Shown here: positions 3,092-37,209 of the stretch, piece after piece
Numbering within the stretch: position 1 is the stretch's first letter
Layout of the letters: every line of letters starts with the position of its first letter
Assembly: GCF_017635265.1 (NCBI RefSeq)
Contig: NZ_JAGBLU010000018.1
Location: forward strand, 1 to 39,067
DNA: 39,067 bases
Direction: 5' to 3'
From: Butyrivibrio sp.
Lineage (GTDB): Bacteria > Bacillota > Clostridia > Lachnospirales > Lachnospiraceae
Program-made: the position numbers and the translations under genes
The notes under the pieces: generated by a model
What the model saw: only the letters and a program-made list of their open reading frames with translations
What the model was told of the DNA's origin: nothing
Databases searched by the model: none

Positions 3092-3960
3092 TGCATACAA
3101 AAGAAAAAACATCCAGCGTAGTAATAAGGCTGATAATTGCAATTATTGTAGCGGTCTATGTATTATTCCCATTTTTCCTGCTTCTTATAAATTCAGGTAA
3201 AGTGACATCTGACATTACATCCAATCCGGTAAGTCTTTCAGGTGCCAGCCTTTCACAGCTCCTTGAAAATATTAAGGCAGTAATAAATGATCCTAACTTC
3301 CTGTTTTGGAGTTCATTTGGTTCATCAGCACTTATCACAGTAGTTTCACTTGTTTTATTATCACTTTTCGGTGCTATGGCTGCATGGGTAATATGCCGTA
3401 ACAAAACGGTTTGGTCAACAGTTATTTACTTCACCTTTATTGCTTCAATGATCATTCCTTTCCAGGTAGTAATGCTTCCTCTTATCTCTACCTTCCGTGA
3501 CGTTGGCAAGTTTATCGGCATTTCAATGCTTCAATCCGTTCCGGGCATCGTATTTGCTTACCTTGGATTCGGCGGTGCCATGACAGTATTCATTCTTAAC
3601 GGATTTATAAAGGGAGTTCCTTACGATCTCGAAGAGGCTGCTTCAATCGATGGATGTTCACCGGAGCAAACATTTTTCCAGATCATATTCCCTCTGCTGA
3701 CTCCTGTTATTACCACTGTTACTATTCTTAACGGTATGTGGATTTGGAATGACTATCTTCTTCCATCTATGATGCTTGGGCAAAACGGAAAGGTAATGAC
3801 AATTCCTATTGCAATACAGAAATTCGTAGGATCTTACGTAAAGAGCTGGGATAGAATTCTTCCGGCAGCACTTCTTGCAATAGTACCAATGATCATCCTC
3901 TTCCTCATCGCCCAAAGGCAGATCATGGAAGGCATGATCGAAGGTGCCGTAAAAGGCTAA
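3091..3960 (+). CDS. CUT1 sugar ABC transporter permease, MalG-like
   Basis: A 289-residue second permease subunit with about six transmembrane helices and a clear EAA loop (EEAASIDGCSP, then IIFPLLTPVI). It partners the MalF-like protein and the upstream lipoprotein. Its ATG shares a base with the TAA of the previous gene, and GGGAGGTGG lies just ahead inside that gene, so the two are translationally coupled. It is the last gene of the operon; a strong terminator follows. Confidence 0.93.
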   Translation: MHTKEKTSSVVIRLIIAIIVAVYVLFPFFLLLINSGKVTSDITSNPVSLSGASLSQLLENIKAVINDPNFLFWSSFGSSALITVVSLVLLSLFGAMAAWVICRNKTVWSTVIYFTFIASMIIPFQVVMLPLISTFRDVGKFIGISMLQSVPGIVFAYLGFGGAMTVFILNGFIKGVPYDLEEAASIDGCSPEQTFFQIIFPLLTPVITTVTILNGMWIWNDYLLPSMMLGQNGKVMTIPIAIQKFVGSYVKSWDRILPAALLAIVPMIILFLIAQRQIMEGMIEGAVKG

Positions 3961-15459: not shown

Positions 15460-15531
15460 AGGGGAATCATACAATGGCTAGTATGCCGGTCTCCAAAACC
15501 GCTCATGCGGGTTCGAATCCTGCTTCCCCTG
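15460..15531 (+). tRNA. tRNA-Trp (anticodon CCA)
   Basis: A cloverleaf folds cleanly: acceptor AGGGGAA/TTCCCCT, D stem ATAC/GTAT, anticodon loop CTCCAAA (anticodon CCA), T arm GCGGG-TTCGAAT-CCTGC, discriminator G, no encoded CCA end. Oddities are a C-C mismatch at the outer pair of the anticodon stem and a 4-nt variable loop. Its last 25 bases plus flank recur at 17474, so its 3' half serves as an integration site. Confidence 0.9.
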
Positions 15532-15692
15532 CTCATTGTAAAAAGACTGGAATCCAGATAATTGCTGGAGTTTCAGTTTTTTTGTTGTTAAAAATCTTTT
15601 GTAGTAAATGTCTGTTTTAGTTCAAAAAAGTACGTTTTGGAACAGTAAATTTAGGGTGATTTTAGGGTACAAATCTGCGTACTAATCATGTA
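15510..15692 (+). repeat. Left direct repeat / attL-like site of the tRNA-Trp mini-island
   Basis: About 90% identical to 17474-17657. It starts with the 25-bp core from the 3' end of tRNA-Trp (15510-15534), continues with a terminator (GACTGG...TTTCAG plus T run, 15545-15583), and ends with two 11-bp-period repeats TTAGGGT(GATT/ACAA) at 15651-15672. The last feature resembles arm-type sites of tyrosine integrases. Confidence 0.85.
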
Positions 15693-15820
15693 TAATGTGG
15701 GAAAACAGCTATTGATCACGTTTCTTCATAAGAGTTTTATTTGACTGAACATAACAGTTGTAGTAATATGATTATGCGGAAACGCAATAAAAAGCGATTA
15801 TATATTCTATGGCAAAGCGA

Positions 15821-15848
15821 AACCCTCGATGTGGCGACATCGAGGGTT
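15821..15848 (-). terminator. Perfect hairpin downstream of the acidic protein gene
   Basis: AACCCTCGATGT (15821-15832) and ACATCGAGGGTT (15837-15848) form a perfect 12-bp stem with loop GGCG. It lies 50 nt downstream of the minus-strand gene at 15898. The T run is poor in either direction. Nothing else is seen in 15693-15897. Confidence 0.65.
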
Positions 15849-15897
15849 TCTTGCTCGTTAGAGTTACTGCTGAACTTCGATTATTATGTAAAAATAG

Positions 15898-16299
15898 TTA
15901 CTCCTGAGTTGATGACTCTGATGATGGAGCATCTACAATAATAACTTCATCCCATACAATATAATATGGCATATCATCAATAGTTAGTTTAAGTGGTAAG
16001 TTTACTTCATTAAACTCGGTAATGCATGCATTTTCTGGATAATCAAAGACTGACTCGATTATATTTATTGTACAAAAATCCTCCTGTCCTACATTTTCTA
16101 CAGCTGGGTCATTTAGGAAGTCTTCGACTGAATTAAGTGATTCTATTACATTATAAAAATCAACGTCATCTTCAACCTTCTTCACATATGCTGTACCACT
16201 TCCCGTATAATGATTGTCTTCAGTGAATTCATCCTCGAAGTTGCTTCTACAGCAGATGCAACTATAATTGAAGACATCGAGAGGTGATAAGAGTGGCAT
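15898..16299 (-). CDS. Acidic hypothetical protein divergent from the Abi gene
   Basis: A 133-residue strongly acidic protein of unknown family, without signal peptide or membrane segment. Near the N-terminus it has a CICC cysteine cluster, and the C-terminal third (LPLKLTIDDMPYYIVWDEV) looks like a compact beta-rich fold. The ATG at 16299 follows TGGAG at a six-base distance; an ATG at 16314 is also possible. Its promoter must lie in the 150-bp region shared with the abi RNA on the other strand. It may be a modulator of the defence locus or passenger DNA. Confidence 0.6.
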   Translation of the reverse strand: MPLLSPLDVFNYSCICCRSNFEDEFTEDNHYTGSGTAYVKKVEDDVDFYNVIESLNSVEDFLNDPAVENVGQEDFCTINIIESVFDYPENACITEFNEVNLPLKLTIDDMPYYIVWDEVIIVDAPSSESSTQE

Positions 16300-16324
16300 T
16301 TCTGACTCCATCATATTGTATTCA

Positions 16325-16353
16325 TTGACAATAAGGTTCTTAACATATAAAAT
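16325..16353 (+). promoter_or_regulatory. Strong promoter of the abi-linked small RNA
   Basis: TTGACA (16325-16330), 17-nt spacer, TAAAAT (16348-16353), a near-consensus sigma-A promoter. The predicted start is near 16360. It is the best promoter match seen in the island. Confidence 0.82.
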
Positions 16354-16359
16354 GATTAT

Positions 16360-16431
16360 AGTGACTAAGTTCCAGATACTCGTGAGGACTGGGACCGCGG
16401 GAGGACCTGAGGGCCCTCCTTTAATTTTTTT
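16360..16431 (+). ncRNA. Structured small RNA directly upstream of the Abi/HEPN gene
   Basis: A roughly 70-nt GC-rich block stands out in AT-rich DNA, between a consensus promoter and a T run. Hairpin 1 pairs TTCCAG (16370-16375) with CTGGGA (16389-16394). Hairpin 2, a terminator, pairs GGAGG (16400-16404) and CC with GG and CCTCC (16415-16419) around TGAG, followed by TTTAATTTTTTT. The abi ribosome binding site starts two bases after the T run. An RNA motif upstream of abiF-type genes is known and has been proposed to act as the antitoxin; membership of this RNA in that motif is inferred from position and shape only. Confidence 0.68.
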
Positions 16432-16450
16432 CTTGAGGAGTTTTTCTAAT

Positions 16451-17389
16451 ATGCCTAAGCCATATCTTCCGTATGGTAAACAAATCCAAAAACTAATAAA
16501 TGATAAAGGGTTAATAATAAAAGATGTAAACTTTGCTGAGAGAATGCTAACCGATATCGGCTATTTCTCTCTAATTGGTGGATATAAGAATCTGTTTATC
16601 AATCCTATGACAAGGAAGTATGTAGGTGGTACTACCTTTGAAGATGTGCTTGCCTTATATCACTTTGACGAAGAATTAAGAGCCCTTACTTTTAATTATT
16701 TGATCAAGGTAGAGCAAAAGATACGGCAATTAATATCAGATAGTTTCTGCGCATCATTTGGTGAGAATCAATCTCAGTATCTTTCATCGGTAAATTATAA
16801 TCAAAGTCCTAAATTATCCCATGATGTTACCAAGCTTATTAGTATTTTGGATTATCACGCAAACAAGAACACTGAGAAACCATATCTTGTACACCAGAGA
16901 AAAGTATATAGTAACGTTCCGTTATGGGTCACAACTAAAATCCTTACTTTTGGTCAGTTATCAAAATTCTATGGGTTATTACAACATAGACAGCAGAGTA
17001 TGATCAGCAAAGCCTACACAAATGTGTCCGAGAAGGCTCTTGGTCAATATCTTGGTTGTCTGACTCTTTTTAGAAATGTATGTGCTCATAATGAGAGATT
17101 GTTCAGTCATAACCTTGTACAAAGAGAATTTCCCGACACTCCGATTCATAAAAAAATGAATCTCCCTATGACTGGATCAATGTATTCTATTGGTAAAAGG
17201 GATTACTTTGGATTAGTAATTGCTTTTAGATATTTACTAAGAAGAGATGAGTTTTTGCAATATAAGCGTAGTCTTAAGAAACTTATAGATCAATACTGCA
17301 AGAAGAGCCAGCGACTAACCAAGTCTAATCTGCTAGATCAGATGGGATTGCCTTCTGATTGGGAGAATATCACCAGGTATAAGATATAA
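16451..17389 (+). CDS. Abi_2 family (AbiD/AbiF-like) HEPN abortive-infection protein
   Basis: A 312-residue protein with the Abi_2 N-terminal signature (YGKQIQKLINDKGLII, then ERMLTDIGYFSLIGGYKN) and a C-terminal RX4H motif, Arg208 to His213 in FRNVCAHNERL, the hallmark of HEPN ribonucleases. Family members cause growth arrest on phage infection. The ATG at 16451 follows TTGAGGAG at ten bases; the in-frame extension upstream runs through the RNA terminator and is not translated. Expression would need read-through of that terminator or RNA-level control. Related proteins have been proposed as ancestors of Cas13. Confidence 0.88.
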   Translation: MPKPYLPYGKQIQKLINDKGLIIKDVNFAERMLTDIGYFSLIGGYKNLFINPMTRKYVGGTTFEDVLALYHFDEELRALTFNYLIKVEQKIRQLISDSFCASFGENQSQYLSSVNYNQSPKLSHDVTKLISILDYHANKNTEKPYLVHQRKVYSNVPLWVTTKILTFGQLSKFYGLLQHRQQSMISKAYTNVSEKALGQYLGCLTLFRNVCAHNERLFSHNLVQREFPDTPIHKKMNLPMTGSMYSIGKRDYFGLVIAFRYLLRRDEFLQYKRSLKKLIDQYCKKSQRLTKSNLLDQMGLPSDWENITRYKI

Positions 17390-17473: not shown

Positions 17474-17657
17474 GGTTCGAATCCTGCTTCCCCTGCTCTT
17501 AAAGAAAAGACTGGAATCCAGATAATTGCTGGAGTTTCAGTCTTTTTTGTTGTTAAAAATCTTTTGTTGTAAATGTCTGTTTTGGTTCAAAAAAGTACGT
17601 TTTGAAACATTTAAATTAGGGTAATTTTAGGGTACAAATCTGCGTACTAATCATGTA
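17474..17657 (+). repeat. Right direct repeat / attR-like site with displaced tRNA-Trp 3' end
   Basis: Second copy of the island boundary: 25-bp tRNA core (17474-17498), terminator, and 11-bp-period repeats at 17616-17637. The sequence left of the core has no tRNA 5' half, so this is a displaced 3' fragment. Confidence 0.85.
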
Positions 17658-36995: not shown

Positions 36996-37034
36996 ATAAT
37001 TAAAGCCCCGACTCTCGTCGAGGCTTTAATTATA
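36996..37034 (-). terminator. Terminator hairpin downstream of the PBECR4-like operon
   Basis: ATTAAAGCC (36999-37007) pairs with GGCTTTAAT (37022-37030), with a further GAC/GTC inner stem, flanked by A/T tracts on both sides. Nothing else is seen between 36851 and 37209. Confidence 0.75.
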
Positions 37035-37209
37035 TAGTGTTATCTTTTCAGCTTGCGCCTAACTGGCTCGCGGTTGTCACACTAAACCCGCCCATAGACT
37101 CCATGTATCCCCCTGCCAGTAGGGATTTACACTTCACAGCCAACAAATGCTCAAAGTCATTTGTTACAACTTTAATATACAGTGTCACAATAAACCTGTC
37201 AGTTGAAAT

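Follow-up and report, generated by a model that had tools for sequence, protein, structure and literature searches.

The closest described relative of the locus reported here is the type III-like AbiF/RCd22 module of the C. difficile prophage phi027. In the accessible text of PMC12373285, RCd22 lies upstream of abiF behind one sigma-A promoter and is followed by a terminator; no second promoter is predicted, and read-through from RCd22 into the toxin gene was observed. RCd22 binds AbiF; it neutralises the toxin both in cis and in trans, and toxicity depends on residues R202/H207 of AbiF (RX4H) (PMC12373285). The same text reports that Cas13 is considered a descendant of AbiF, presents the PbAbiF structure as a dimer with ncRNA, and names RNA in repeats as a key feature of type III systems.

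We analyzed a 39,067-nt stretch of DNA from the rumen-type bacterium Butyrivibrio sp. (hereafter the window), in which a small structured RNA precedes an Abi_2 gene (Table 1). A preliminary description had reported a near-consensus promoter (TTGACA-17-TAAAAT) here, and this is borne out: 9 promoter-like sites occur in the scanned stretch (7.0 expected from shuffles), and this one alone scores 11/12. It is presumably common to the RNA and the toxin gene. Six bases downstream of the promoter comes AGUGACUAA, followed by hairpin 1, a short linker, hairpin 2, and a U-rich tail; the conserved AGUGA (from 16360) probably lies at or near the transcription start, as judged from promoter spacing. The distance from the T run to the ribosome binding site, described earlier as two bases, is three (CTT), since the run ends at 16431 and GAGGAG starts at 16435. 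A simple terminator scan of the stretch called no terminator, probably because of the A/C mismatch in the hairpin-2 stem, and the terminator is judged here by eye and by covariation. The order of noncoding RNA, terminator, and toxin gene behind a single promoter is a type III-like layout.

Table 1. Features of the RNA–Abi_2 locus and the surrounding repeats (window coordinates)
Feature	Position	Strand	Remarks
Left copy, ~183-nt direct repeat	15510-15692	.	starts in 3' part of tRNA-Trp (15460-15532)
138-aa ORF, divergent from RNA	15898-16314	-	no Pfam match
Sigma-A-like promoter TTGACA-17-TAAAAT	16325-16353	+	11/12 consensus letters
Small structured RNA, ~70 nt, two hairpins	16360-16431	+	model R1 covers 16360-16427, 88.5 bits
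Hairpin 1	16369-16395	+	7-pair stem GUUCCAG/CUGGGAC, 13-nt loop
Conserved hairpin-1 loop AUACUCGUGAGGA, 13 nt	16376-16388	+	
Hairpin 2 (terminator hairpin) GGAGG-A-CC-UGAG-GG-C-CCUCC	16400-16419	+	covaries in relatives
U-rich tract (terminator tail) UUUAAUUUUUUU	16420-16431	+	directly 3' of hairpin 2
Ribosome binding site GAGGAG of toxin gene	16435-16440	+	by eye
Abi_2 family protein, 312 aa, RX4H HEPN motif R208-N-V-C-A-H213	16451-17389	+	ATG at 16451
Right copy of ~183-nt repeat	17474-17657	.	93% identical

The Abi_2 protein, a presumed RNase toxin, matches PF07751 (E 4.2e-45), and its best PADLOC model is AbiD (E 1.6e-61). The RX4H HEPN motif read earlier at Arg208/His213 was confirmed: both residues, together with N209, C211, and A212, are invariant across 12 aligned proteins. 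The AlphaFold2 model is mainly helical (mean pLDDT 91), and the sole convincing solved relative found by sequence is 8vz6, an 'Abi family protein' (E 1.4e-20), a structural link that rests on sequence. The nearest relatives, identified by a peptide-pattern scan of genome contigs, are from Butyrivibrio (93% and 89% identity). A further RNA and Abi_2 pair occurs in the genome of the window (G000:C49:8242-9257, L002), with a protein 43% identical and an RNA that is diverged yet matches the covariance model R1 described below (72.8 bits).

The ~183-nt repeats, which may be att-like, bound a ~2-kb cassette holding the RNA and the toxin gene. The only ORFs of at least 80 aa between them are the Abi_2 frame and the 138-aa ORF, so no integrase was seen in the cassette. 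Across the genus, the repeat was partly matched in 38 of 61 genomes, most of them over only its first 22–83 bases, the first 23 being tRNA; the genomes of loci L217 and L218 have one repeat copy each, and B. proteoclasticus P18 (L026) has three (822-1008, 1464-1650, and 3512-3698). The tRNA-Trp gene is perhaps a cassette hotspot in Butyrivibrio. In P18, the DNA upstream of the RNA differs from that of the window, and a nucleotidyltransferase-like gene and a small peptide gene were seen by eye between the repeats. In its 822-1464 interval, again by eye, a minus-strand ORF for a short membrane peptide lies close to a strong hairpin, and this hairpin recurs at window positions 15819-15850; we take the ORF to resemble type I toxin peptides. 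Elsewhere, the window carries an Rfam drum RNA (37032-37142, minus strand, 56.2 bits).

Folded singly, the window RNA was no better than shuffled sequences (-20.6 kcal/mol, z 0.13). Single-sequence folding was therefore rejected as structural evidence, and the structural claim rests on relatives. A first alignment comprised 14 RNAs (11 distinct), namely that of the window and 13 from loci with proteins 36–89% identical. All 154 of its 154 cells were paired, 10 of 14 pairs had changed on both sides, and 0/500 shuffles were as good; sliding the partners by one column lowered pairing to 56–58%. The preliminary description had let its ~70-nt, two-hairpin RNA stand or fall with covariation in homologues, and the RNA passed this check: it is real, its structure backed by covariation in relatives. 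Across 73 sources, R1, the covariance model built from these 14 RNAs, matched the window and 25 clade loci at 47–91 bits (24 distinct places, among them the 14 used for building). Apart from these matches, L010 contains a weaker second copy (30 bits), and nothing else scored above 15 bits. The score of the window RNA in Table 1 is self-inclusive, as this RNA was among the sequences used to build the model.

The toxin-linked alignment (A6) comprises 50 RNAs from 48 loci, among them the second, downstream RNA of L118 and the RNA of L042, which has an Abi_2 gene that fell outside our definition of intact and was placed among the toxin-linked RNAs. Here 99.4% of cells were paired and 11 of 14 pairs had changed on both sides; the pair count was reached by 3/500 shuffles, the fraction of cells paired and the covariation score by 0/500. 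Three positions of the hairpin-1 loop (C20, G25, and G28 of the RNA) are invariant in all 50. A fixed inner pair within this loop was rejected, as the two predicted inner pairs break in several relatives. Four pattern-found candidate RNAs (L188-L191) had no R1 match at E ≤ 0.01 and were likewise rejected. A tandem RNA pair precedes one gene in L135 (248-383), the sole such locus among the 80 considered below, and in L118 the RNA flanks the Abi_2 gene on both sides (801-869 and 1867-1935).

Membership of the abiF motif, which the preliminary description had inferred and for which it had suggested an Rfam covariance search, was not borne out. Neither 16300-16500 searched at E ≤ 10, nor the whole window at gathering score, nor the genome to which the window belongs at E ≤ 0.001 (strict filters) contained a match to the RF03085 model; Rfam otherwise returned only chance matches to other families in 16300-16500. 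An Rfam scan of 16 loci at E ≤ 1 detected abiF in L030, L031, L032, L012, and L020 (four distinct places, L012 below gathering score) and in 0/10 loci with the new RNA. L011, abiF-like by eye only, was also unmatched, and thus 5/6 abiF-type loci (four distinct places of five) match RF03085. We rejected RF03085 membership on the lack of a match in the window, in 16300-16500, and in the 10 new-type loci. Two scans of 36 Abi_2 loci outside the clade (E ≤ 3) found abiF in nine, five of which reached gathering score, and at Abi_2 genes accompanied by abiF RNA, R1 produced no convincing match. In L020, abiF RNA stands on both sides of the Abi_2 gene (1417-1465 and 2443-2479, one below gathering score).

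The proteins are divided in the same way. When 84 Abi_2 proteins were placed in a tree, those 53 that accompany the new RNA made up one side of a branch (support 82/61, which is moderate, with many of the other rows long), with one change versus 25.5 in shuffles. Abi_2 proteins with the new RNA are thus, at this branch support, one clade apart from the sampled abiF-RNA proteins. Other Abi_2 clades show other short upstream hairpins by eye (L227, L228, L229, L017; L015, L021, L059, L060; L048; L022, L231), perhaps several further RNA families; those of L017, L015, L021, L059, L060, L048, and L022 had no match to Rfam abiF at E ≤ 3. The RNA of the window is a family without a match in Rfam 15, within a known kind of module. 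A literature search of titles and abstract starts, with subscription papers outside its scope, found no report pointing to this RNA or to its toxin-less copies, and the words 'orphan' and 'solitary' do not occur in the accessible text of PMC12373285.

The same 397 Lachnospiraceae genomes were searched for the RNA (R1, strict filters) and with the clade protein profile, and both counts are lower bounds. R1 matched at E ≤ 0.01 in at least 84 genomes, many of the weak matches probably being due to chance, and the profile found at least 42 genes, most matching over the whole profile, at E ≤ 1e-100, a cut-off chosen after viewing the list. Among the 42 matches listed, coordinate comparison placed an R1 match 12–238 nt upstream of 41. 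The remaining gene (G432) has no R1 match in the upstream stretch retrieved and one ~55 nt downstream of the profile match (L138), with a promoter-like site of its own (10/12). Below the protein cut-off were 28 of 70 rows, comprising fragments (several of genes with an R1 match) and other-clade genes; one such fragment at a contig edge (G399) is without an R1 match. R1 had no match in four other-clade rows (L226-L229), nor in L230 and L231. In a sample of the class Clostridia, the RNA was matched at E ≤ 1e-4 in 15 of 341 genomes. Where the gene is intact, 50/53 RNAs, some of them near-identical, have a promoter of at least 9/12 at the right place, versus 2.2 expected by letter shuffling; the corresponding count for the remaining RNAs, mostly at broken-gene loci, is 21/25 (1.0 expected).

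A position directly upstream in 41 of the 42 listed clade genes, with hairpin 2 and the U tract ending just before the ribosome binding site, would also suit an RNA that is a cis-acting leader only, a terminator or attenuator that sets the toxin mRNA, perhaps by sensing a signal, and does not act on the protein. We consider such a leader improbable, as the RNA often occurs without the gene. The 83 R1 rows of at least 44 bits yielded 80 loci, after G336 (contig edge) and a second G558 copy, whose gene is open by protein profile search, were left out and the tandem pair was merged. An intact gene lies downstream in 39, a broken or partial one in 18, and a gene upstream only in one (G432), while 22 show no trace, as judged over 1.5–2.2 kb downstream (0.8 kb in L172). 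Intact here means at least 265 profile positions between the first and last match in one frame, which does not imply a working gene; L075 was counted as such though its last ~35 positions sit in another frame. L116 and L104, which end at contig ends, were counted as remnants, and the remnants of L116 and L141 were found at E 0.006–0.009 only. At two loci close to that of the window, one from P18 and one from an uncultured Lachnospiraceae MAG (L028), the gene is broken and the RNA unchanged. Recoding TAG as Q for the two in-frame stops in L028 was rejected, as the frame still ends at the second stop; the copy is simply broken. Loss of the toxin with retention of the RNA is predicted for an antitoxin, not for a pure leader, and a leader also fits poorly with the clade member whose RNA stands only downstream behind its own promoter-like site, and with toxin-less RNAs that keep covarying stems as well as the hairpin-1 loop, a part of the RNA outside the terminator.

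Toxin-less copies, those showing no toxin trace in the sequence covered, were aligned as a set of 28 (A5, from which L146, L148, L167, and L187 were left out by choice) and as a set of 38 (A8, with these four and six viral copies added), with similar results. In the larger set, 97.9% of cells were paired and 13 of 14 pairs had changed on both sides; 4/500 shuffles reached the pair count and 0/500 the fraction of cells paired and the covariation score. C20, G25, and G28 are kept in 38/38, and conservation of the loop is about equal in toxin-less and toxin-linked copies, a conservation that is partly ascertained, as the model or patterns used to collect the copies reward loop and stems. A promoter of at least 9/12 stands at the right place in 15/28 toxin-less RNAs (1.5 expected); 13 have none, and some of those without a clear promoter sit at gene ends. 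In L107, L128, and L182, from three genomes, the RNA has no clear sigma-A promoter and is followed after ~32 nt by a small ORF and a Zeta-toxin-like gene (Pfam for L107), and in L143 it precedes a nucleotidyltransferase/NTase_sub_bind pair (Pfam). Because these RNAs precede other toxin-antitoxin genes, a different partner is possible for some toxin-less RNAs; as general partners, the Zeta and nucleotidyltransferase neighbours were rejected, occurring at three loci and one locus only.

Solitary copies are also present in viral contigs, which were collected by pattern scans and protein searches. Of 15 with R1 scores of at least 43 bits (no census, as the patterns cover only some RNA variants), seven hold Abi_2, and PF07751 is absent from the whole record in eight (L167, L168, L199, L201, L202, L204, L205, and L208), where the IMG/VR records may be fragments and L199 and L202 share nearly the same locus. 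Abi_2 is also absent at four weaker viral R1 matches (30–36 bits; L192, L198, L203, and L207), which are not in this count. The 112.8-kb contig of L168 carries, in the parts read, genes for topoisomerase II, DNA ligase, tail fibre, RNA ligase, and dUTPase, and four tRNAs. The RNA of L168 starts 6 bases past the stop codon of an ORF of 161 aa and has no clear promoter of its own (7/12); its hairpin 2 contains compensatory changes. Of the other copies, that of L204 follows an endolysin gene at ~250 nt and that of L205 an integrase gene at 56 nt, whereas the L201 copy precedes an integrase gene by 1.3 kb and the L183 copy, on a bacterial chromosome, precedes the gene for a terminase small subunit by 0.6 kb. 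Together, the eight Abi_2-less contigs, the phage scaffold L193, and the chromosomal L183 and L187 make up 11 phage- or prophage-like copies, in which 99.3% of cells are paired and 13 of 14 pairs have changed on both sides.

These copies bear on whether toxin-less RNAs are functionless relics or ordinary terminators, with only the RNA beside an intact gene being of consequence. Gene loss is indeed common, as the 18 of 80 broken or partial loci attest, no clear promoter stands before 13 of the 28 toxin-less RNAs, and several sit at the ends of genes, a place suited to a terminator (L168, L077, and L205). Even so, the phage- and prophage-like copies differ widely in sequence yet retain their pairing through changes on both sides, and toxin-less RNAs keep the loop about as well as toxin-linked copies do. 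On balance, we regard decay or mere termination as rather unlikely. What would be expected of an anti-defence element, a solitary viral copy without the defence gene and under selection, was found in 8/15 contigs, with the 11 copies covarying. We hypothesize, giving the idea an even chance, that Clostridia phages carry the solitary antitoxin RNA as counter-defence, an RNA 'anti-Abi'. An infecting phage would flood the cell with antitoxin RNA and so keep the HEPN suicide RNase of the host silent, and solitary chromosomal copies would do likewise against incoming Abi-bearing elements.

For the locus itself, we think it likely that RNA and gene constitute a two-part toxin-antitoxin module in which a trans-acting RNA neutralises a HEPN RNase by direct binding. 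The preliminary description had proposed an RNA-antitoxin/toxin module of the abiF type. There is good support for a module of RNA and HEPN toxin in which no second promoter is visible; the antitoxin role is the best reading, drawn from the RCd22/AbiF analogy and the toxin-less copies; the assignment to abiF is not supported. As the RNA is not of the abiF family, the RCd22 mechanism is carried over by analogy, and since the anatomy is the same and the RNA different, we propose the same mechanism with a different RNA. One promoter would make the ~70-nt RNA, most transcription stopping at hairpin 2, and occasional read-through would make the mRNA of the Abi_2/HEPN ribonuclease. The RNA would bind the toxin directly, probably via the conserved hairpin-1 loop, and hold it inactive, as RCd22 does AbiF; growth would stop once the toxin was released by stress or by an infecting phage. 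Action in trans as well as in cis is suggested because relatives lose the toxin and keep the RNA, and because solitary RNAs, whether they have a promoter of their own or follow phage genes, keep stems and loop. The reported descent of Cas13 from AbiF and the PbAbiF dimer with ncRNA (PMC12373285, accessible text) could instead suggest a Cas13-like role, in which the RNA would direct the HEPN RNase to particular RNAs or switch it on against them. This seems to us highly improbable: the loop is nearly fixed across copies, no variable spacer-like part was seen, and the accessible text of PMC12373285 reports neutralisation, not guiding, for RCd22.

Among known systems, AbiF/RCd22 shares with the present locus the Abi_2 RX4H toxin, the upstream RNA, the sigma-A promoter, the terminator, and the lack of a second promoter; read-through mRNA was demonstrated there and is predicted here (PMC12373285, accessible text). 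By contrast, RCd22 carries two abiF motifs (RF03085), according to the same text, whereas the RNA described here matches none. It instead combines one loop hairpin with one terminator hairpin, and its Abi_2 proteins belong to another clade. The abiF RNA of RF03085 is likewise short, lies directly upstream of Abi_2 genes, and by its look doubles as terminator; however, it is a single 37-position motif, unlike the new RNA in sequence, loop, and stems. A second, unrelated-looking RNA family for AbiF-type toxins, common in Lachnospiraceae, would make RNA control of Abi_2 broader than one Rfam motif. ToxIN, CptIN, TenpIN, and AbiQ (type III) also place an RNA antitoxin gene, a terminator, and a toxin RNase gene on one transcript. 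ToxN toxins are not known to belong to the HEPN proteins. The RNAs differ too: ToxI consists of a 36-nt pseudoknot in repeats (PMC12373285, accessible text), whereas the RNA here is one unit. With a single unit in the window and a tandem pair in only one of 80 loci (L135), the module lacks the repeats of type III and is best said to work like, rather than to be, a type III system. Racr RNA anti-CRISPRs, as presented in the accessible text of PMC10651486, are similarly solitary copies of a defence-system RNA in viral genomes. If the counter-defence hypothesis is true, phages would possess an RNA-based answer to abortive infection parallel to these RNA anti-CRISPRs, with the difference that Racrs mimic CRISPR repeats and their inhibition was tested in that work (PMC10651486, accessible text), whereas the RNA described here belongs to a HEPN toxin, of which it is a putative inhibitor.
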